A stretch of 41,485 nt of DNA from Elusimicrobiota bacterium (GCA_016209085.1 JACQWV010000101.1:1-41485); one strand, 5' to 3'; counted from the first letter of the stretch, positions 1,092 through 39,619 are shown. Made by a program: numbers and translations. Notes: a model not told the origin generated them from the sequence alone.

Positions 1092-2807
1092 TTACCCTTT
1101 GCGAACAAAATACGCAAGAATTCCTAAAAGAACGAACTGGGAGTCTATCACAGTTTCCGACAGGGTTTTTTCAGGTATTCTGCCTGAACTGAACGCCAGA
1201 ATCAAAACCGCGTAATAGAAAAGTCCGAGAAAAGCCGAGCCTGCCGGCTCAGGCCTGAATCCCGCCGTTTTTATGGCCATGAGCAGTATTTCAAGCATTA
1301 CAAAACCGACTAACAGGGCGGCGTAGGTTATATTCGGCCCGGCTGCTTTGTAAAAATTTTCTTTTCCCACAATCATGTCGTTGTGCGCGCTGCTTATGCC
1401 GAACATTACCGAGCGCATGAACACTAAAAGAGTCGTAAACATTATGACAAGCTGGGTGGATTTGATGAAAATAGAGCCGTTTAAAAATCCCGGAACGTAG
1501 GCGCACACAAAACCCCATCCCAGCGCGGTCACTATGTCTTTTGAAGCCGGGAAACCCGTGACTTTGTCCAGGCCGAAAGGCATTCTCTGGGGATAAAGAG
1601 TTCCCAGCAGCCAGAAGAGCATTGTCATGAAAAATACCTGGTAGCCGAGAAACGCCGAAGCGGCTATTGAAAGGATTCCGGCGGATATTCCGGCGAATTT
1701 TATTTTTGACTTGAATTTAATGAAAAGGATTTTTTTGAGTTTGTCCGGCTGGACAGCGCCTTTTTCAAGGGTTCTGTTTATGAGGTGAAGGCTCAGGACG
1801 AAAGTTCCGGAAACAAAAAGAGCGGCAACGGATACTATTGCTCCTTCCAGTTTCATGCACACGTATGTCAGGCATATGGCTGCAAGCGCGGTATAGATGC
1901 AGCTTGCTACGGCGAATTCCCATAAAACCGCAAGTTTTTTCATGAAAGGATGTTTAACTGATTTTGAGATTTCTTTCGCCGCATTGACGACTTCATCAAT
2001 CATCCAGCTTGGGGTGGAGGCCCCGGCTGTGATGAAAATGCTTTCGGCGTTTCTCAGGGTTTCAGGTTCCAGTTCGTCGGCCTTTTCTATGTGAACAGCT
2101 GTTTTCGCAAGGCCGGAGCATATCTGGAAAAGCCGTCTGGTGTTTGCGCTGTTTTTGCCGCCTACTATTACGGCTAAATCGGAGTTTTTTGAAAATTCAA
2201 GGGTTTCTCTCTGCCTCTGTTTTGTGGGGTTGCAGATGGTGTTTGAGATTACAAGCTCCCTTGTTTTTGTTTTCAGAATTTCAACCGTTTTGAAAAAGAT
2301 TTCTTCTTCCTGGGTTGTCTGGGCCACCACGTTGGCTTTTTTAAATTCAGGAAGGTTTTTTGCCTCGCCGGGGCCCGATACGACATAACATTTCTCCTGT
2401 GCATAACCCACGAGGCCTATGACTTCGGCGTGGTCCCTGTCGCCCACTATTATTGTGGCGTATCCCTGCTCCGAATACTTTCTGATTATGTTATGCACGT
2501 TTTTTACAAGGGGGCAGGTAGCGTCAATCACTTCCACGCCGAATTTTTTTATCTGTTCTTCAAGGTACGGCGGGATTCCGTGCGCCCTTATTACGAGAAT
2601 GGAATTTTTGTCTTTTATTTCAGAGGCGCGTTCAACCGCAAAAATGTTTTTTTCTTCAAGTTTCTGTATGACCTGCTTGTTGTGGATGAGGGGTCCAAGG
2701 GTGTAAATAGTTCTTTTGTATTTCTGCCTGAGTTCCAGAACTTTGTCTATGGCGTTTTTTACTCCGGGGCAGAATCCCGCGTTCTTAGCGACGATGATTG
2801 AAGGCAT
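1092..2807 (-). CDS. ispH: IspH (HMBPP reductase) fused to a UbiA-like membrane domain
   Basis: Residues 1-283 are 4-hydroxy-3-methylbut-2-enyl diphosphate reductase, the last MEP-pathway enzyme, which makes IPP and DMAPP using a [4Fe-4S] cluster. The three cluster cysteines are C13 (GFCPGV), C98 (DATCPLV) and C192 (TICNPTKQ). Substrate-binding H42, H76, H126 and catalytic E128 (DHAEVIG) are present. Residues about 285-571 form a polytopic domain with around eight hydrophobic spans. It resembles the UbiA prenyltransferase family: a SKDIVTALGWG segment and a RSVMFGISSAHNDMIVGKEN segment match the second Asp-rich region and its surroundings. The first Asp motif (NDxxD) is not evident, where LHLINRTLEKG stands instead, so prenyltransferase activity is doubtful. 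Inference: the domain anchors IspH at the membrane or hands prenyl diphosphate to a lipid acceptor. The start codon lacks a strong Shine-Dalgarno. Confidence 0.9.
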   Translation of the reverse strand: MPSIIVAKNAGFCPGVKNAIDKVLELRQKYKRTIYTLGPLIHNKQVIQKLEEKNIFAVERASEIKDKNSILVIRAHGIPPYLEEQIKKFGVEVIDATCPLVKNVHNIIRKYSEQGYATIIVGDRDHAEVIGLVGYAQEKCYVVSGPGEAKNLPEFKKANVVAQTTQEEEIFFKTVEILKTKTRELVISNTICNPTKQRQRETLEFSKNSDLAVIVGGKNSANTRRLFQICSGLAKTAVHIEKADELEPETLRNAESIFITAGASTPSWMIDEVVNAAKEISKSVKHPFMKKLAVLWEFAVASCIYTALAAICLTYVCMKLEGAIVSVAALFVSGTFVLSLHLINRTLEKGAVQPDKLKKILFIKFKSKIKFAGISAGILSIAASAFLGYQVFFMTMLFWLLGTLYPQRMPFGLDKVTGFPASKDIVTALGWGFVCAYVPGFLNGSIFIKSTQLVIMFTTLLVFMRSVMFGISSAHNDMIVGKENFYKAAGPNITYAALLVGFVMLEILLMAIKTAGFRPEPAGSAFLGLFYYAVLILAFSSGRIPEKTLSETVIDSQFVLLGILAYFVRKG

Positions 2808-2832
2808 TCCATAATTTTATAAAATTTACAAA

Positions 2833-2883
2833 TGTAGGTTCATCCGCCTGAGGCGGACGGGCTTGATAAATCAAGCCCCTACA
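2833..2883. repeat. TGTAGG...CCTACA palindromic repeat, copy 1
   Basis: This 51-bp element runs from TGTAGG to CCCCTACA. It contains a perfect TCCGCCTGAGGCGGA palindrome (2843-2857) and GGGCTTGA-TAAA-TCAAGCCC (2859-2878). It belongs to the same family as the elements at 12672, 13514, 14900 and 18756. Confidence 0.75.
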
Positions 2884-2892
2884 ATAATAACT

Positions 2893-4893
2893 ATGTCCGG
2901 CAAATTCAAACTTGTTTCTCCTTTCATGCCCAGGGGCGACCAGCCGCAGGCCATAGCCGGTCTTATTAAAGGTTTTGAAGGCGGCAGGGCAAACCAGACC
3001 CTGCTGGGCGTTACCGGCTCAGGCAAGACTTTTACAATGGCCTCTGTCATTGAAAAACTCAACAGGCCGGTTCTCGTGATTTCGCCCAACAAGGTGCTGG
3101 CCGCGCAATTATACTCCGAATTCAAAACCTTTTTCCCGGAAAACGCGGTTGAATATTTTATTTCCTATTACGATTATTACCAGCCCGAGGCCTATCTCCC
3201 CCAGACCGACACCTACATAGAAAAAGACGCTTCAATCAACGAGCATATTGACAAAATGAGGCTGAAGGCGACTTCCTCAATCCTTTCCCGGAGGGACGTA
3301 ATTGCAGTGGCTTCGGTTTCCTGCATATACAGCATAGGCTCGCCTGAAAATTTTTCAAAACTCTGCGTGAACGTCAAAATAGGCCGGAAAATTGACAGAA
3401 AAAATCTAACCCGACTGCTCGTTGAGAACAGGTATGAAAGAAACGACTTTGAATTCAAGAGAGGGACTTTCAGGTTAAGGGGAGCTTTCGTGGACGTTTT
3501 CCCGGCCGACGCGGACTCGGTTTATAGGATAGGCGTGGACCATGAGGTAGAGTCTGTCTCTAAAATTAATCCCCTGACAGGAGATGTGATTGAAAAACTG
3601 AAAGAGATATGGATTTATCCCGCGTCTCACTTCGTGTCCGGCCCCGGAGAGGTTGAAACCGCTCTTGAATCAATCAGAAAAGAGCTGGGGGAAAGGCTTG
3701 GGGAATTGAAATCCGTAAACAGGCTGCTTGAAGCGCAGAGGCTTGAGCAGAGGACAAAATACGATATTGAGATGATAAGTCAGACAGGATACTGCCACGG
3801 CATTGAAAATTATTCAAGGCATTTTTCAGGCAGGCCTCCGGGGTCAAGGCCGTTCTGCCTGCTTGACTATTTCCCGGAGGATTACGTTCTTTTTATTGAC
3901 GAGTCGCACGTGAGCGTTCCGCAGGCGCGGGGAATGTATGAGGGGGACAGGTCAAGAAAACGGATTCTTGTGGATTTCGGGTTCAGGCTTCCGTCCGCTC
4001 TTGACAACCGTCCGCTCAGATTTGAGGAGTTTGAAAATATCAGGCCCCAGACAGCGTTCGTGTCTGCCACGCCCGGCCCGTATGAGCTTAAAATCTGCGG
4101 AAAGGACGGCGTAGCTGAGCAGGTGATAAGGCCTACCGGGCTTATTGACCCTGAGGTGAAAATACTGCCGCTGAAAAACCAGATAAAGAACCTTATTTCT
4201 GAGATAGAAAAGACAGCCGCGAAAAAAGAGAGAAGCCTGGCGCTTACCCTGACCAAAAAAACAGCGGAAGATTTAAGCGAATATCTGGTTGAAAAAAACA
4301 TAAAGGCCCGGTACGTCCATTCTTCAATGGACACCCTTGCCAGGCTTGACATCCTGCAGGATTTCAGGAAGGGGAAATTTGACGCGCTGATAGGCATAAA
4401 TCTTTTGAGGGAAGGGCTTGACATTCCCGAGGTTTCCATGGTTGCCATACTCAACGCGGACAACGAGGGATTTTTAAGGAGCGAAACCACTTTGATACAG
4501 ATTGCGGGCAGGGCCGCCAGGAACAAATGCGGCCGGGTTTTTTTGTTCGCGGACAGAATGACGGGTTCAATCAAAAACGCCCTTGCGGAAATGGACAGGA
4601 GGCGCGCCAGGCAGGCTGAATACAACAGGATTCACGGGATAAAGCCCGAAACGATCAAAAAGAAAAACATTGAGCTGGAAGAACTGAGCTCTGCGGCGAG
4701 GAAAAAAGGTTTTTCCATGGTCAGGGACATTGCCTCTGTTTATGTCGCGCCGGAAAACATTTCCAGAGTCATGGATGCGATTGAAAAAGAGATGAAAGAG
4801 GCGGCTGACAATCTTAATTTTGAACTGGCAAAGGAGCTGAGGGACAGGCTGTTTGAGCTGCGGGAGATGAATGTAAGGGCGAAAAGGCGATAA
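2893..4893 (+). CDS. uvrB: Excinuclease ABC subunit UvrB
   Basis: UvrB is the helicase-like damage-verification subunit of nucleotide excision repair, acting with UvrA and UvrC. The 666 residues match the family length. Visible features are the Walker A motif GVTGSGKT (residues 39-46), the beta-hairpin region YYDYYQPEAYLPQTDTYIEK that inserts between DNA strands, the DESH Walker B box, helicase motif VI (QIAGRAARN), and a C-terminal UVR domain (EAADNLNFELAKELRD). The reading frame is open from 2863, but those first ten codons lie in the upstream palindromic repeat. The family starts near KFKLVSPF, so ATG 2893 is preferred. The last codons (RAKRR, stop) are encoded by an 8-bp tandem repeat. 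Confidence 0.97.
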   Translation: MSGKFKLVSPFMPRGDQPQAIAGLIKGFEGGRANQTLLGVTGSGKTFTMASVIEKLNRPVLVISPNKVLAAQLYSEFKTFFPENAVEYFISYYDYYQPEAYLPQTDTYIEKDASINEHIDKMRLKATSSILSRRDVIAVASVSCIYSIGSPENFSKLCVNVKIGRKIDRKNLTRLLVENRYERNDFEFKRGTFRLRGAFVDVFPADADSVYRIGVDHEVESVSKINPLTGDVIEKLKEIWIYPASHFVSGPGEVETALESIRKELGERLGELKSVNRLLEAQRLEQRTKYDIEMISQTGYCHGIENYSRHFSGRPPGSRPFCLLDYFPEDYVLFIDESHVSVPQARGMYEGDRSRKRILVDFGFRLPSALDNRPLRFEEFENIRPQTAFVSATPGPYELKICGKDGVAEQVIRPTGLIDPEVKILPLKNQIKNLISEIEKTAAKKERSLALTLTKKTAEDLSEYLVEKNIKARYVHSSMDTLARLDILQDFRKGKFDALIGINLLREGLDIPEVSMVAILNADNEGFLRSETTLIQIAGRAARNKCGRVFLFADRMTGSIKNALAEMDRRRARQAEYNRIHGIKPETIKKKNIELEELSSAARKKGFSMVRDIASVYVAPENISRVMDAIEKEMKEAADNLNFELAKELRDRLFELREMNVRAKRR

Positions 4894-18993: not shown

Positions 18994-19731
18994 ATGAAAT
19001 TCGGCGTATTTTCAGACGTTCATTCAAATCTTGAGGCATTGAATGCCGTCCTTGATTTTTTCAAAAAAAACGAAATAACGAATTATATTTGCTGCGGGGA
19101 CGTGGTCGGATACGGCCCCCAGCCGCTGGAATGCGTCAGGAAAGTCGCCGACCTAAAGAATCTTACGATAGTCATCGGAAATCATGACGCGGCGGTCGTC
19201 GGCAAAATGGAGATGAAATGGTTTAATTCGCAGGCGCTGGAAGCCATAGATTTCAGCAGAAAAAATCTCTCCGGCGAATTATTCAGGTATCTTGCGGACC
19301 TGCCGGAAATTATTGAAAATCAGGAATTCACAATCGTGCACGGCTCGCCGAAAAACCATCTCAAGGAATATCTGCTGAGCGAGAGCCAGTTCCTTGAAAA
19401 CACGGGTTTCTGGAAAATATCGCCGTGCTTCATAGGACACAGCCATATACCCGTATATTTCAAGCAGAACGGAATAGAGATACCCGAGAGTGATTTCCTG
19501 AAACCGCTTGCAAAAATCACAGCCAACCCGGCCGGGAAATACATGTTCAACTCCGGTTCGGTGGGCCAGCCGAGGGACGGCAATCCTTATGCGTCATGCG
19601 CGATTTACGACTCCGATAAAAAAGCGTTTGAGATTTTCCGCATTAAATACGACGTCGCCAGAACCCAGAAACTGATGAAAGAGAAAAAACTCCCGCAGGT
19701 CCTGATAGACAGACTGTCCTTCGGATTTTAG
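18994..19731 (+). CDS. Calcineurin-like metallophosphoesterase (YfcE/MJ0936-type)
   Basis: This 245-residue protein has the two-metal phosphoesterase signature in order: DVHSN (D8, H10), CGDVVGYGP, IGNHDAA, IVHGSP and FIGHSHIPVYF. Family members hydrolyse phosphodiesters, including cyclic nucleotides or other small substrates; the actual substrate cannot be read from sequence. The ATG follows a heptamer repeat directly, so no usual Shine-Dalgarno is seen. A receiver gene starts 3 nt after the stop, which implies a two-gene unit and suggests the esterase works in a signalling context. Confidence 0.88.
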   Translation: MKFGVFSDVHSNLEALNAVLDFFKKNEITNYICCGDVVGYGPQPLECVRKVADLKNLTIVIGNHDAAVVGKMEMKWFNSQALEAIDFSRKNLSGELFRYLADLPEIIENQEFTIVHGSPKNHLKEYLLSESQFLENTGFWKISPCFIGHSHIPVYFKQNGIEIPESDFLKPLAKITANPAGKYMFNSGSVGQPRDGNPYASCAIYDSDKKAFEIFRIKYDVARTQKLMKEKKLPQVLIDRLSFGF

Positions 19732-19734
19732 AAG

Positions 19735-20127
19735 ATGAAAGCCAGATTATTAATCGTCGACGACGACGCCAATTTCATAGAAACCCTGAAAGACAGCCTA
19801 AAAATAGACGGCTGGGATATTAAAATTCTTCCCGCATATTCCGTGCAGGACGCTCTCAATGTCCTCTCCAAGACGACGCCTTCCCTGATAATCCTGGACG
19901 TCCAGCTCCCCGACATGCACGGAACCGAGCTTTTAAAAATACTCAAGGATTCCGCAAGACTCAAGGCCGTGCCGGTGATTTTTATATCAGCCAGATATAC
20001 GGAGCCTGCCGACAGGACCGAGGCTCTGTTAGCTGGCGCTGGAGCGTTTTTCTCCAAACCAGTAAACGTGGACAATCTCAAAAAAGAAATCAAGTATCTG
20101 CTTGACAAGAAAAACCAAGTCTTATAA
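19735..20127 (+). CDS. Single-domain response regulator (CheY-like receiver)
   Basis: This 130-residue receiver domain has no output module. The acidic pocket is VDDD (D9-D11), phospho-acceptor D55 lies in LIILDVQLPD, the switch residue is S85 (FISA), and K108 is in FSKPV. It is a paralogue, not a copy, of the minus-strand receiver at 7435. It begins 3 nt after the phosphoesterase stop and is probably translationally coupled to it. No kinase is nearby. Confidence 0.92.
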   Translation: MKARLLIVDDDANFIETLKDSLKIDGWDIKILPAYSVQDALNVLSKTTPSLIILDVQLPDMHGTELLKILKDSARLKAVPVIFISARYTEPADRTEALLAGAGAFFSKPVNVDNLKKEIKYLLDKKNQVL

Positions 20128-20244
20128 TATTTACATTATCCTCTAATTACTGCAAAGCTCAGTAAAATTTAATCCGGCGCATAGAAACAAGATTCGCCGT
20201 TTGTAACAAACCACAAACAACAAAAGGGTAATAGGAAAGAAGCG

Positions 20245-21609
20245 ATGTTTAAGCCGTCCAAATATAATTTTCTGATAGAAACCTCTGATAATCATTTACT
20301 TCTTTATAACAGCCGGACAAGCGCTTTCGCGGCTGTCCCTCTGGAATTCTCAGGCGATATCCAATATCTTTTGACTAATCCCTCTCGCGGCACTGAAAAA
20401 GATGAGGAAATTATTAAGAATTTAGAAACAGGCGGATTTCTTATAAAACCCGACATAGATGAGCTTAGGAAAATAAGAAAAGTTTATGATGATTATAAAA
20501 ACGACGGCAAAAAAGTCATTCTTACAATGCTTGCCTCTGAAGCATGTAATTTTAACTGCCCGTATTGTTTCACTTACGACAAACGTGGTTTAAATATGAC
20601 TCCGTGGGTTTATGATGCCGCACTTAAATATTTACAAAAAAGTATCAACAAAGATTCTCAAATAAAGATTAACTGGTTCGGGGGGGAACCGACCCTGGCG
20701 CATGACAATATTATCTCCTTTTCCAATAGACTCAACCAATTAACGTCTGAGCGCAAGCTAAAAAAACCCATATATACGATGGTTACTAACGGATATTTAA
20801 TGACAGTGGACAAATTTGAGTCTTATGTGGAAGCGGGAATAAAAAATTTCCAGATAACCCTGGACGGACCCGAATCCTTTCACAACAAAACCCGATCTTT
20901 GTCTAATGGGCGTGAAACCTTTCAAACAATATGGAATAACTTGGTGACAATAAAGTCCGTTAAACCTAATTTTGAGATGTCTATTCGTGTTAATTTTCTC
21001 GCAAATATGCGGCAGGAGATTTATGATTTAACAAATAAGTTTGCCTCCGTTTTTGGGGCAGATGAAAGATTTGGGATATATTTTAGACCCGTCTACAATT
21101 TTGAAACAAACCGTCAAGACATATGCGCCATGAAAGATAGCATTTGTTCGATGGCAGAGGGTTTACAGATGCAATTGGAATATGACTTGCATGCCATGGA
21201 AGTTCTGTCTAAATATAGAAAGAAGTCCGCTATGCCAAACCCAATTCCCCGCGCTATTCCGGCTTGGTGCGAAACAGAGAAGCAAAGTTCCTGGATTATA
21301 GGCGCGGATGGATTGTTGTTTAAGTGTGACACATATGTCGGTAGGAAAGAGCAGGCTGCGGGAAAAATTAATATGGACGGCGAGATAGAACGTTTTCAAG
21401 GCGCGTATAAATGGGATACGGATATCTATACCGCAAAAATCGAAAATTGTATAAAGTGCAAATTATTGCCTTTATGCCAAGGCGGTTGCCCGAGATTGCG
21501 CATGGAAGGGAAGAAGAGTTGTCATTTGAACGAGCCATATCTTAAAGAAATTTTACTAAAGGCTCATGCGACCCACATGAATCCACAATTGAATGTAGCG
21601 TATAATTAA
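20245..21609 (+). CDS. Radical SAM/SPASM peptide maturase
   Basis: This 454-residue enzyme probably modifies the small peptide encoded just downstream. Residues 1-85 look like the N-terminal extension (possible peptide-recognition winged helix) common in peptide maturases. The radical SAM motif is CNFNCPYC (C101, C105, C108) and the SAM-binding GGEP is at 146-149. The C-terminus has the full seven-cysteine SPASM signature: C342, GX4C at C361, then CX2CX5CX3C (C402, C405, C411, C415) and C426, enough for two auxiliary [4Fe-4S] clusters. Enzymes of this type make thioether or carbon-carbon crosslinks in RiPPs; which one cannot be told here. AGGAAAG lies upstream of ATG 20245. The gene is more A+T rich than its neighbours and no partner peptide lies upstream. 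Confidence 0.93.
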   Translation: MFKPSKYNFLIETSDNHLLLYNSRTSAFAAVPLEFSGDIQYLLTNPSRGTEKDEEIIKNLETGGFLIKPDIDELRKIRKVYDDYKNDGKKVILTMLASEACNFNCPYCFTYDKRGLNMTPWVYDAALKYLQKSINKDSQIKINWFGGEPTLAHDNIISFSNRLNQLTSERKLKKPIYTMVTNGYLMTVDKFESYVEAGIKNFQITLDGPESFHNKTRSLSNGRETFQTIWNNLVTIKSVKPNFEMSIRVNFLANMRQEIYDLTNKFASVFGADERFGIYFRPVYNFETNRQDICAMKDSICSMAEGLQMQLEYDLHAMEVLSKYRKKSAMPNPIPRAIPAWCETEKQSSWIIGADGLLFKCDTYVGRKEQAAGKINMDGEIERFQGAYKWDTDIYTAKIENCIKCKLLPLCQGGCPRLRMEGKKSCHLNEPYLKEILLKAHATHMNPQLNVAYN

Positions 21610-21676
21610 AAAACCGATTGGTAGAGTGGTTTAATTGAAAGCGGGAGTAATAGAACTGTACGAAGAGAAGAATACT

Positions 21677-21684
21677 AAAGGAGG
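21677..21684 (+). promoter_or_regulatory. Strong Shine-Dalgarno of the precursor peptide gene
   Basis: AAAGGAGG ends nine nt before ATG 21694. It is among the strongest ribosome sites in the window and is the main reason to accept such a short gene. Confidence 0.85.
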
Positions 21685-21693
21685 AACAACATA

Positions 21694-21795
21694 ATGTTTA
21701 CATGGTATCAGTTGCCGGTAGAGCATGCGAATGCAGCCGAAAGCAGGGGCGGGTGGTGCTGTCATAACGGGACATGCTGTTTCGGTCAGGAATAA
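21694..21795 (+). CDS. Putative RiPP precursor peptide, cysteine-rich
   Basis: This is a 33-residue open frame between the radical SAM gene (84 nt upstream) and the ABC ATPase (12 nt downstream), with a near-perfect Shine-Dalgarno. The N-terminal half (MFTWYQLPVEHANAAESR) would be the leader. The C-terminal half begins GG and continues WCCHNGTCCFGQE. Four cysteines sit in two CC pairs separated by HNGT, a plausible target for thioether crosslinking by the SPASM enzyme. The GG before W resembles a double-glycine cleavage site, but no C39 peptidase is in the cassette, so any leader removal must be done elsewhere. I do not recognise the core from a named RiPP family. The function (bacteriocin, signal or metal binder) is unknown. 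Confidence 0.82.
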   Translation: MFTWYQLPVEHANAAESRGGWCCHNGTCCFGQE

Positions 21796-21807
21796 CAGCC
21801 AAAATCC

Positions 21808-22539
21808 ATGCTCTCAATACATAATCTCTCCAAAACCTATCAGGTAAACGGAAAATATCTGGAAGCGGTAAAGCCGTTCAGCATGGACATCGTTCCGGGG
21901 AAAGTTTATTGTTTCCTGGGTCCAAACGGAGCAGGCAAGACCACAACTATTAAAATGTTATGTGGGCTTGTTTCTCCGACGACAGGGACAATTGCTTATA
22001 ATGGCAGAGATATTATTGGGGGTTCCTGGATTTCCCGGCCGAAAACAGGAGCGGTACTGGAAGGCGCCAGGAATATTAACTGGCGCTTGACAGTACCAGA
22101 AAACATTGATTACTTTTGCGGGTTGCATGGGCTTAGCGGGCATAGAATCAGAGCTGAGCAATATATACAAATGCTTGGGTTGGAAAATCATAAAAACACC
22201 GAATGCCGTTATCTTTCACGCGGCAATCAGCAGAAGGTTGCTCTTGCTTGTGCGTTAACTTTGGACGCGGAAGTTTTATTGTTAGATGAGCCGACTCTCG
22301 GTTTGGATATAGAAATTGCTAGGGCGATTATGGAAGTCATAAACCATGAAAAGAGCAAAAACCGCATTATTATAGTTTCAACACACGATACGGAATTTAT
22401 AGAACTTGCCGCTGATGAGGTCGTACTGTTTAAAAACGGCATACTAAAACCTCTCGGAACTCCACAGGAAATCATGGCGAAGCACGGTAATGGGGATAAT
22501 AGGTTTTCAACTGCATATTTACAACTTATCCGGAGCTGA
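21808..22539 (+). CDS. ABC transporter ATP-binding protein (peptide export, inferred)
   Basis: This 243-residue ATPase of the ABC-2 exporter class has Walker A GPNGAGKTT (38-46), an LSRGNQQKVALA signature, Walker B LLLDEPTLGLD and a switch histidine in STHD. It lies 12 nt after the precursor peptide gene and overlaps or nearly abuts the permease, so the pair should form one exporter, two copies of each subunit. The location implies export of the modified peptide or self-protection; sequence alone cannot separate these. Confidence 0.92.
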   Translation: MLSIHNLSKTYQVNGKYLEAVKPFSMDIVPGKVYCFLGPNGAGKTTTIKMLCGLVSPTTGTIAYNGRDIIGGSWISRPKTGAVLEGARNINWRLTVPENIDYFCGLHGLSGHRIRAEQYIQMLGLENHKNTECRYLSRGNQQKVALACALTLDAEVLLLDEPTLGLDIEIARAIMEVINHEKSKNRIIIVSTHDTEFIELAADEVVLFKNGILKPLGTPQEIMAKHGNGDNRFSTAYLQLIRS

Positions 22540-22540
22540 C

Positions 22541-23329
22541 ATGAATGCTGTTATTAGTAGTGGCATAAACATATTCAAAGCGGAATTTATAGCCGGCTTT
22601 ATTTTAACAAAGCGATATTGGCTAAACATGGCGGCGGGCATTCTTAATATGTTTCTGTTTTTGGTTTTTATTCAATTGGGTATACGCTCATTCGGGAGTG
22701 GGGTTTCCGCTGAATTTATGAGCGCCAAGATGGAAATGCTTATCATCGGGTTCTTTTCTTTCTCTATTATCGGGGTTGGGATGGGTTCTATAACTTCCCG
22801 TCTAAGCGATAACGCCGCAACCGGGATATTAGAACAGACCATGCTCAGTCCGATCGGAGTGGTTCCGGTTTTGTTCTTTGGTGTATTAACGCAGTTTGTT
22901 TTCGCGCTGGTGCTCTATCTTTTGCTTATTCCTCTTAGTATGTTACTGTGCAGTCACTTTTTTAGCGTAAACATATTGCATTTAACGTTCTTTTCCGTAA
23001 TGTTATGGTTAGCAAGTTGTGGCATCGGTTTTGCTTTATCTGGATTGACATTGATATATAAAAAAACTCAAAACTTTAATAATCTAATCCAGTTTTTGAT
23101 TCTTACATTAATGGTAATTCCGTCTTATCCATTCAATGTCTTTTCGCTGTTGCCCGTATCTCCGCAGGTAGCAATATTAAATAAGGTGATAGTATCTCAT
23201 CAGTCTGTAGGATCCACATGGATAATCTACACCGTTCTGCAAAGTTGTATTTATTTCATTTTGGGATGTGCTGTCTTTCGTGTGGCGGAAAAATATGCCA
23301 AAGAAAAAGGAATAATCGGGCAGTATTAA
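22541..23329 (+). CDS. ABC-2 type permease
   Basis: This 262-residue integral membrane protein has about six hydrophobic spans and the general layout of ABC-2 (NodJ/DrrB-like) permeases, with a conserved-looking YPFNVFSLLPVSP segment in the last third. ATG 22541 is preferred because GGAG lies six nt upstream and it starts one nt after the ATPase stop; the longer frame from 22490 lies within the ATPase gene. It is the membrane partner of the preceding ATPase. It has no peptidase domain. Confidence 0.9.
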   Translation: MNAVISSGINIFKAEFIAGFILTKRYWLNMAAGILNMFLFLVFIQLGIRSFGSGVSAEFMSAKMEMLIIGFFSFSIIGVGMGSITSRLSDNAATGILEQTMLSPIGVVPVLFFGVLTQFVFALVLYLLLIPLSMLLCSHFFSVNILHLTFFSVMLWLASCGIGFALSGLTLIYKKTQNFNNLIQFLILTLMVIPSYPFNVFSLLPVSPQVAILNKVIVSHQSVGSTWIIYTVLQSCIYFILGCAVFRVAEKYAKEKGIIGQY

Positions 23330-23380
23330 CTTCCAGCGAAGCGGCATTAAATTACAAGCCACGAACAACGAGAGGTTACT

Positions 23381-23707
23381 ATGCCAAATGAAATTGAACT
23401 TACGGATTCAAATTTTGAACAGGAAATCATGAAAACGGATTTGCCGGTCCTGGTTGACTTCTGGGCTCCCTGGTGCGGCCCCTGCAGGATGATGGGACCA
23501 GTGATTGAAGAGATGGCCGCCGCTTATGCCGGAAAAGTCAAGGTCTGCAAGCTGAACACTGACGACAATCCGGATACCGCTTCCAGATTTGAAATTACGG
23601 CAATACCCACTATCATAATATTCAAAAAAGGAAAACCCGTGAATCAATTGGTCGGACTCCATCCCAAGGAGGAGATAAAAAAGCACATTGAAGAAGCGCT
23701 TTCCTAA
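23381..23707 (+). CDS. trxA: Thioredoxin
   Basis: This 108-residue cytoplasmic disulfide reductase has the active site WCGPC (C32, C35), DFWAPW context and cis-proline in AIPTII. There is no signal peptide. AGAGG lies upstream of the ATG. It directly follows the RiPP exporter, 51 nt downstream. It may simply be the housekeeping thioredoxin next to polA; its base composition looks like the housekeeping neighbours rather than the cassette. Keeping the peptide cysteines reduced before modification is a possible but unproven role. Confidence 0.95.
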
Positions 23708-38937: not shown

Positions 38938-39336
38938 TTGCAAAAGGCGGTTAATTCCCTTGAACGGGCGTTAGAAGTTGCTTCTTCTCACATTAAAGGG
39001 GCAAGCGACAGTGAACAGGAAAAAGTTATCAGGGCTGGAGTTATACAAACTTTTGAATTCACTTATGAACTGTGCTGGAAGTTTATAAAACGATGGCTTG
39101 AAGCCAACGGCGAAGGAGCGTCTGTTGACGGCGCGACAAGAAAAGAAGTCTTTCGTATCGCTGCGGAAAAGCAGTTGATAGAGAATGTGGAATTATGGTT
39201 TGAGTATACTAAAGCAAGAAACGAAATCGCGCATACCTATAACCCTGATACTGCGCAAGAGGTTTACCAGAAAGCCATAAAATTTATTAGGGATGCGGAA
39301 TTGCTGTTGAAGAAACTGGAAAGCAAAAATGATTAA
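38938..39336 (+). CDS. HI0074/HepT-like nucleotidyltransferase substrate-binding protein
   Basis: This 132-residue, all-helical protein belongs to the HI0074 family, related to HEPN/HepT. Helix motifs are IQTFEFTYELCWKFIKRWLE and the HEPN-like R-x4-H (ARNEIAH). Family members pair with a minimal nucleotidyltransferase, in several cases as a toxin-antitoxin pair in which the HEPN protein is an RNase and the transferase modifies it. TTG 38938 is the only available start; the N-terminus begins just after a CAGTAAC repeat and may have lost a few residues. It overlaps the transferase gene by 8 nt. Confidence 0.85.
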   Translation: MQKAVNSLERALEVASSHIKGASDSEQEKVIRAGVIQTFEFTYELCWKFIKRWLEANGEGASVDGATRKEVFRIAAEKQLIENVELWFEYTKARNEIAHTYNPDTAQEVYQKAIKFIRDAELLLKKLESKND

Positions 39337-39619
39337 CGCGCCTAAACAGTATCTTTTGACTATTAAGAGGATACTGCAAAAGCATTTATCTGATGCCCAA
39401 ATAAGAGCTTTCGGTTCCCGCGTAGTAGGAAAATCTAAAATATATTCAGATTTGGATTTGGTTATTGTGGCAAAAACAAAGGTTAATTCAAAAGTCTTGA
39501 TGAAGCTTAAAGAAGAATTTGAAGAATCCGATGTCCCCTTCCGCGTTGATATTATTGATTGGCATAGAATATCCGAGGAGTTTAAGCGAATTATTAATAG
39601 GCAGTATGAAGTTCTATAA
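39329..39619 (+). CDS. Minimal nucleotidyltransferase (MntA/HI0073-like)
   Basis: This 96-residue protein has the nucleotidyltransferase signature GSRVVGKSKIYSDLDLVIV (GSxxxG and DxD) and a third acidic residue in VDIIDWHRI. It is the standard partner of the overlapping HepT-like gene. In characterised pairs the transferase adds AMP to the HEPN partner and neutralises it. The pair is more A+T rich than the flanking genes and lies between lptD and a decayed epimerase gene, a typical accessory location. Confidence 0.87.
   Translation: MINAPKQYLLTIKRILQKHLSDAQIRAFGSRVVGKSKIYSDLDLVIVAKTKVNSKVLMKLKEEFEESDVPFRVDIIDWHRISEEFKRIINRQYEVL

Follow-up and report, generated by a model that had tools for sequence, protein, structure and literature searches.

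What does a compact four-gene cassette in an Elusimicrobiota bacterium make, and how did it come to lie next to trxA? The cassette was found in a stretch of 41,485 nucleotides (GCA_016209085.1, JACQWV010000101.1:1-41485), which as a whole is called the window below. Its four genes are consecutive and all on the plus strand, as the sequence-only reading of this DNA had it: a radical S-adenosylmethionine (SAM)/SPASM peptide maturase of 454 residues (20245–21609), a peptide of 33 residues (21694–21795), the ATP-binding subunit of an ATP-binding cassette (ABC) transporter (21808–22539) and a putative ABC-2-type permease (22541–23329). We consider it likely that this is a cassette for a ribosomally synthesized and post-translationally modified peptide (RiPP), in which the 33-residue peptide is made, modified and exported. 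Homologues were surveyed within one phylum (341 Elusimicrobiota genomes), supplemented by one search for close relatives; contig C59 belongs to the same genome as the window, and contigs C73 and C86 belong to genome G017.

A conserved precursor gene beside the maturase

The 33-residue peptide (MFTWYQLPVEHANAAESRGGWCCHNGTCCFGQE) is preceded by a Shine-Dalgarno sequence, AAAGGAGG (21677–21684, plus strand), exactly 9 nt upstream of its ATG, and its C-terminal part reads ESRGG-WCCHNGTCCFGQE, with GG followed by a CC-x4-CC arrangement; on both points the sequence-only reading was accurate. The peptide can be divided, putatively, into a leader, MFTWYQLPVEHANAAESRGG, and a core, WCCHNGTCCFGQE. Within the 41-kb window it is the sole small frame with a Shine-Dalgarno sequence and at least four cysteines in its last 25 residues, and 0.2 such frames are expected by chance (40 order-2 Markov resamplings of the window). 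The ratio of nonsynonymous to synonymous substitution rates (dN/dS) between the peptide gene and its orthologue on C73 (MFTWYQLPIEQANATESRGGFCCHSGTCCFGEV) is 0.13, which indicates purifying selection; the values for the maturase, ATPase and permease genes are 0.10, 0.09 and 0.10, respectively. A chance short open reading frame is ruled out by the resampling expectation together with the dN/dS of the peptide gene. No NCBIfam or Pfam model matched the window precursor.

A tiny cysteine-containing peptide (26–41 residues) and an exporter were found beside each of eight related maturases in Elusimicrobiota genomes. This makes nine cassettes altogether (the window, six close and two more distant ones), and the short peptide adjoins the maturase in all of them, so that the neighbourhood check showed the short frame to be conserved. 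Six of the eight maturases are 35–87% identical to that of the window, the 87% being reached by CAIPTO010000073 from an uncultured Elusimicrobia; close relatives are sporadic and occur in 5 of the 341 genomes. The genome of the window itself, an Elusimicrobia MAG, holds a second, paralogous cassette on C59, with a maturase that is 52% identical and two precursor copies ending in CCLSGVCCKEE(K/R), and the C86 cassette has three copies, which mostly end in CCLSG(C/A)CCKDN. Such multiplication of precursors beside one maturase supports the RiPP reading. The precursors of G002 and G018 end in AICGLCCVR and VGCLNGGCVG, that of G009 is MRWYIKRKNKIENYNCILNTGLLCGGCCVE, and those next to the maturases of the more distant cassettes are MVWIAEAQTNLESMLTNGVCTGNGKCGQ (G224) and MEWAEAENEEQATDTNVKCDTNYVCI (G188). 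A Shine-Dalgarno sequence was present upstream of every homologous precursor checked. The leaders mostly start with M-x(0-2)-W, with M-x(0-2)-W-Y conserved, and CCxxGxCC or a shorter version of it closes the cores. In the aligned precursors a Gly two residues ahead of a core Cys is invariant, and the number of cysteines varies from 2 to 7.

The exporter genes are intact and conserved as well. The ATPase (243 residues, plus strand) is DrrA-like, matching Pfam ABC_tran (E 3.1e-29) and the NCBIfam drrA model with 159 bits, under its cutoff. The permease (262 residues, plus strand, without a C39 peptidase domain) matched no Pfam family, and its assignment as ABC-2 type rests on its position after the ATPase gene and its conservation in homologous cassettes; 22541 is preferred over 22490 as its start because every homologue starts there. 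The cassette had also been described as more A+T rich than its neighbours (46–48% GC), which is true of the maturase (39.1% GC), permease (38.6%) and ATPase (43.6%) genes but not of the peptide gene (52%).

The maturase and its likely chemistry

The cysteines that bind the Fe-S clusters are complete, in agreement with the sequence-only reading: the radical SAM CxxxCxxC motif is at C101/C105/C108 and the SPASM set is C342-x13-G356-x4-C361 ... C402-x2-C405-x5-C411-x3-C415 ... C426. They are invariant across seven homologues. Pfam identifies the protein as Radical_SAM, and the best NCBIfam model is TIGR04463 (rSAM_vs_C_rich), which describes maturases of Cys-rich RiPPs and is covered nearly at full length (residues 7–416 on 1–395 of 438) with 196.7 bits (E 5.8e-58; curated cutoff 525); the homologues tested score 181–211 bits. 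The top models (TIGR04463, Clo7bot, geopeptide, CefB and PapB) all stay far under their cutoffs, and their ranking in five homologues is like that of the window maturase. The Clo7bot model (TIGR04334) gave 180 bits (cutoff 600), the PapB model (NF047865) 129.9 bits (cutoff 340; 115–151 bits in related maturases) and the anaerobic sulfatase maturase model (TIGR03942) 90.7 bits (cutoff 349). Since related maturases, too, have the short frame next to them, and the enzyme groups with peptide maturases rather than with sulfatase-maturing enzymes, the exported, radical-SAM-modified peptide that had been proposed from the DNA is well supported.

The nearest solved structure is CteB (5wgg), both in a profile search (E 2.8e-25) and as the top Foldseek match of an AlphaFold2 model, and structures of anaerobic sulfatase-maturating enzymes (anSMEs) rank below it by either method. 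CteB forms a thioether in a SCIFF peptide (PMC8326336). In the AlphaFold2 model, roughly residues 1–90 form three strands and then helices, the order of a RiPP recognition element (RRE), and this N-terminal region is RRE-like in the prediction. Judged by its sequence relationships, the maturase represents a previously undescribed subfamily within a known type of peptide maturase, with putative thioether chemistry. Thioether formation is taken as the most likely reaction because the nearest models are maturases of Cys-rich peptides and the closest structure is CteB, and we favour it with some reserve; that the modification is a crosslink of this type is likely.

Comparison with known peptide systems

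Several known systems share parts of this arrangement. Among the TIGR04463 proteins, a member on a Methylomagnum plasmid is 31% identical to the window maturase; apart from the score far below the model's cutoff, the difference lies in the substrate, as the peptide neighbouring the Methylomagnum enzyme is a 'Cys-every-fifth' protein of ∼680 residues and that of the window a 33-mer. Clo7bot loci (ctpM) likewise have multiple short Cys-rich peptides, a SPASM maturase (31% identical) and, downstream, an ABC transporter and a DUF4097-type protein, and proteins of a similar, beta-repeat-like kind also come after the cassettes of C59 and C86. However, Clo7bot precursors are 41–53 residues long and differ in their leaders (MKFIKKPxxxFEEGYC) and Cys patterns, the ABC protein is a fused exporter, and the low score of the window maturase with the Clo7bot model again sets it apart. 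In the Paraclostridium Clo7bot locus the annotated DUF4097 protein occupies the same place as the Elusimicrobia protein. Genes for such beta-strand-repeat-like proteins accompany the cassettes of C59, C86 and G224, and none of the Elusimicrobia products passed a Pfam cutoff; the genes compared are L015 9300–9941, L017 6438–7187, L073 6864–7712 and L039 7222–7923.

Ranthipeptide maturases (SCIFF/CteA-CteB, PapA-PapB) share the RRE-radical SAM-SPASM architecture predicted for the window maturase and include the nearest solved structure; the bonds of ranthipeptides are formed from Cys with the help of auxiliary clusters (PMC8326336). The window cassette differs in its PapB-model score and in a precursor with neither the six-Cys-in-45 pattern nor the Cys-x3-Asp motif. 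Sactipeptide clusters such as those of thurincin H and thuricin CD resemble it in their short precursor(s), radical SAM synthase, ABC transporter and multiplied precursor genes (PMC8172795), whereas the window cassette has no linked protease and has a 13-residue core with two CC pairs, in which an S-C-alpha linkage would be a candidate bond. Viral relatives were limited to distant maturases (20–36% identity), a few of which have Cys-rich small frames of their own nearby.

Insertion into the response regulator-trxA gap

In 11 relatives nothing separates the response-regulator gene from trxA, the two being 53–331 nt apart and followed by polA; a phosphoesterase gene precedes the response-regulator gene in all 11, and SMC is found there in several. 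The window cassette occupies exactly this gap (20128–23380 on the plus strand as approximate limits, comprising everything that lies between these two genes). The cassette has moved and was inserted into the response regulator-trxA-polA order, because the 11 relatives, including G017, whose orthologous cassette adjoins trpS, keep the site empty. No convincing terminal repeats were seen at the limits of the insertion, and the recombination ends are not visible.

A sigma-70-like promoter, TTGACA-N17-TAATAT (20102–20130, plus strand; 10/12 in a consensus scan), overlaps the 3' end of the response-regulator gene. Sites of this type were no more frequent in the scan than in shuffled sequences. Several relatives have a similar TTGACA..TATAGT or an extended -10 element in their response regulator-trxA gap, and for this reason the window cassette probably uses the old sigma-70 promoter of trxA.

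Elsewhere in the window, a 571-residue protein (1092–2807, minus strand) resembles, by eye, IspH fused to a membrane, UbiA-like domain, and two overlapping small genes (38938–39336 and 39329–39619) look like a HEPN/minimal-nucleotidyltransferase toxin-antitoxin pair, also by eye. Two tRNA genes lie at 83–158 and 998–1069, both on the minus strand.

Predicted control elements of the sister cassettes

Among the seven close cassettes, five (C59, C86, G002, G009 and G018) carry TGGCATAAAAATTG(C/T) upstream of the first gene. Its GG-N10-GC spacing is that of -24/-12 promoters, and the element is a putative sigma-54-type promoter. A sigma-54-like gene (PF04552) is linked to all five. The short sigma-54-like proteins beside RiPP cassettes have ∼340–360 residues (L015 4571–5653, L017 1714–2766, L019 6452–7474 and, on the minus strand, L020 13066–14127 and L011 3188–3559). 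The G002 gene, recognized by similarity to the others, is a truncated remnant without DNA-binding domain, and the C-terminal RRSIAQYRKDL motif remains downstream; in G009 and G018 no PF04552 gene was found in the genome apart from the cassette-linked one. In the genome of the window, a strict form of the motif is present in three copies, each at the C59 locus, and one copy precedes the sigma-54-like gene itself. A response-regulator/sigma-54-activator-like gene is divergent from the cassette in G018 (Pfam match), G188 and G224. Phylum-wide, the exact 17-mer was counted 34 times in 17 genomes, against one occurrence of the reversed pattern. Within the window, matches with up to two mismatches were fewer than in shuffles, with none upstream of the cassette, and the sole exact match, at 23020, falls within the permease gene.

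The 17-mer is not confined to the cassettes. Further loci behind it in G017 are one for a class III lanthipeptide (RamC_N, kinase and LanC), one for a 96-residue Cys-rich peptide and one with a small peptide and a radical SAM protein; in other genomes it is mostly found upstream of secreted small proteins. The lanthipeptide-like locus (L065 on contig C125 of G017, minus strand, 1881–4526 and upstream), behind an TTGGCATAAAAATTGCT promoter, encodes two precursors of 31–32 residues, a RamC/LanKC-type synthetase of 882 residues and an ABC protein. Cys-rich precursor-like peptides of 64–96 residues (MNxxxIIKSLNxTxGxxLTLEKAKDRMEFEALP...) lie behind the TTGGCATAAAAATTGCT promoter in L066 (G017 C87) and L099 (G041 C92), with a partial SPASM-maturase-like frame downstream. 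A family of hydrophobic peptides of 46–48 residues stands directly behind sigma-54-type promoters in L002 (1265–1411), L067/L058 and L094; its C59 member has no Pfam match.

The orthologous cassette on C73 has a different element. A 2'-deoxyguanosine-II (2'-dG-II) riboswitch (RF03165, full-length, 84.9 bits, E 8.9e-21; L009 5868–5938, plus strand) and a terminator are situated directly upstream of the maturase gene, ahead of a RiPP operon in Elusimicrobiota. The 3' strand of aptamer P1 overlaps the 5' arm of the terminator in both copies read, which predicts an ON switch. The window copy lacks RF03165 at the gathering score, and permissive matches gave none for 19700–23500. The 2'-dG-II class has been placed in Bacteroidetes (PMC8872408); RF03165 was detected in 97 of the 341 Elusimicrobiota genomes, with up to nine copies per genome. 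A further copy lies at L015 10089–10159 (plus strand). A radical SAM gene with a GGEP motif (L015 10029–11239), behind the second riboswitch of contig C59, appears to be split over two frames by a frameshift or assembly error. Downstream of many of these riboswitches, a conserved signal-peptide-like peptide of 61–70 residues (MKxNDKxLxAFLVSxGLFS...) is encoded, and the same loci (L183, L185, L187, L188, L189, L191 and L206, in which the aptamer starts at 1501 in aptamer orientation) have a radical SAM protein of ∼290 residues and, often, an apparent family-5 solute-binding protein. The peptide and the ∼290-residue protein apparently constitute another peptide-modification system.

Taken together, these observations allow a tentative proposal, which we hold with more doubt than confidence: the window cassette may belong, in re-wired form, to a broader group of Elusimicrobiota operons for small modified peptides that are controlled in unusual ways. 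One subset would be expressed from TGGCATAAAAATTGCT sigma-54-type promoters with a short, apparently autoregulated sigma-54-like protein whose gene lies beside several of the cassettes. Another, including the orthologue, would be switched on by 2'-deoxyguanosine through 2'-dG-II riboswitches, so that free DNA nucleosides from lysed neighbours would set off peptide production, and the window copy would have escaped such control by inserting behind the trxA promoter.

Proposed pathway and alternative explanations

In the pathway that we propose, the 33-residue peptide would be bound through its short leader by the RRE-like N-terminal domain of the maturase, with M-x-x-W-Y-Q as the conserved handle. 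The 5'-deoxyadenosyl radical and two auxiliary Fe-S clusters would then install at least one Cys-derived crosslink, most likely a thioether, in the C-terminal CCxxGxCC core. An unlinked protease may remove the leader near GG, and the dedicated ABC-2 exporter would carry the product out of the cell and perhaps shield the producer as well. Most likely the peptide would act as an antibacterial of narrow spectrum or as a signal between cells. The cassette is a mobile unit; its window copy probably depends on the old trxA promoter for transcription, and the sister copies are instead preceded by sigma-54-type promoters or a 2'-dG-II riboswitch.

Several observations weigh against this pathway. The absence of a protease, remarked on in the sequence-only reading, holds for the C39 type, as none is present in the cassette and none was found in the 98%-complete genome; without a C39 peptidase in the genome, the GG before the core is only suggestive as a cleavage site. 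The cassette contains no immunity protein, and that of G002 has, by eye, an MFS-like transporter in place of the ABC pair. The Cys pattern is not kept whole, some precursors having just two cysteines (VGCLNGGCVG, GVCTGNGKCGQ), so that different numbers and partners of the bonds are conceivable. Finally, the AlphaFold2 model is shallow (8 sequences, pLDDT 72.8), with values below 50 in the SPASM C-terminus.

The same cassette could also perform another SPASM chemistry, such as cyclopropanation, C-C or C-O crosslinking or epimerization, with the cysteines free or in disulfides. TigE (8vpo), which belongs to the poly-cyclopropylglycine RiPP pathway (PMC9062424), ranks with the nearest solved structures, and it is the Gly two residues before a core Cys that is invariant in the precursors, whereas the Cys number is not. 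We find this doubtful, given that CteB is the closest structure, that the best-matching sequence models describe maturases of Cys-rich peptides, that related maturases resemble the PapB model and that at least two core cysteines are kept in every homologous precursor. A physiological role of the product, for example as a secreted metal or redox ligand rather than a weapon or signal, would suit its four closely spaced cysteines and the trxA gene that happens to come next. The adjacency is accidental, however, because the response regulator-trxA pair predates the insertion, and the mobile, sporadic cassettes with multiplied precursors fit antagonism or signalling better; with sister loci co-controlled with other peptide systems and not with metal genes, such a role is unlikely.

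The window copy might instead have lost its native promoter and control on moving and now be decaying and no longer functional, as it has neither the sigma-54-type site nor the sigma-54-like gene or riboswitch of the sister loci; yet all four frames are intact, with dN/dS values of 0.09–0.13 against the G017 copy, and a sigma-70-like promoter is located just upstream, which makes decay very unlikely. Maturation of a protein such as a sulfatase, with the short frame as an incidental neighbour, would agree with anSME structures being next after CteB. This reading is rejected on model scores (90.7 versus 196.7 bits for TIGR04463) and neighbourhood: homologous maturases keep the short frame with its Shine-Dalgarno sequence, and no sulfatase is encoded in the cassette or was seen among the neighbours. 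It retains hardly any probability beside the RiPP pathway.

Implications

Little was found in the literature on RiPPs of this phylum, and the 12 natural precursors beside nine maturases form a parts list for an uncharacterized family of radical-SAM-modified peptides, whose core of only ∼13 residues lends itself readily to coexpression tests. Because the relatives keep the site empty, the window clearly exemplifies how a small peptide system has entered a housekeeping operon. If confirmed, the regulators of the sister loci would include a sigma-54-like factor that is encoded together with peptide cassettes and would provide, as far as the literature searched goes, a first link between a 2'-deoxyguanosine riboswitch and RiPP production.

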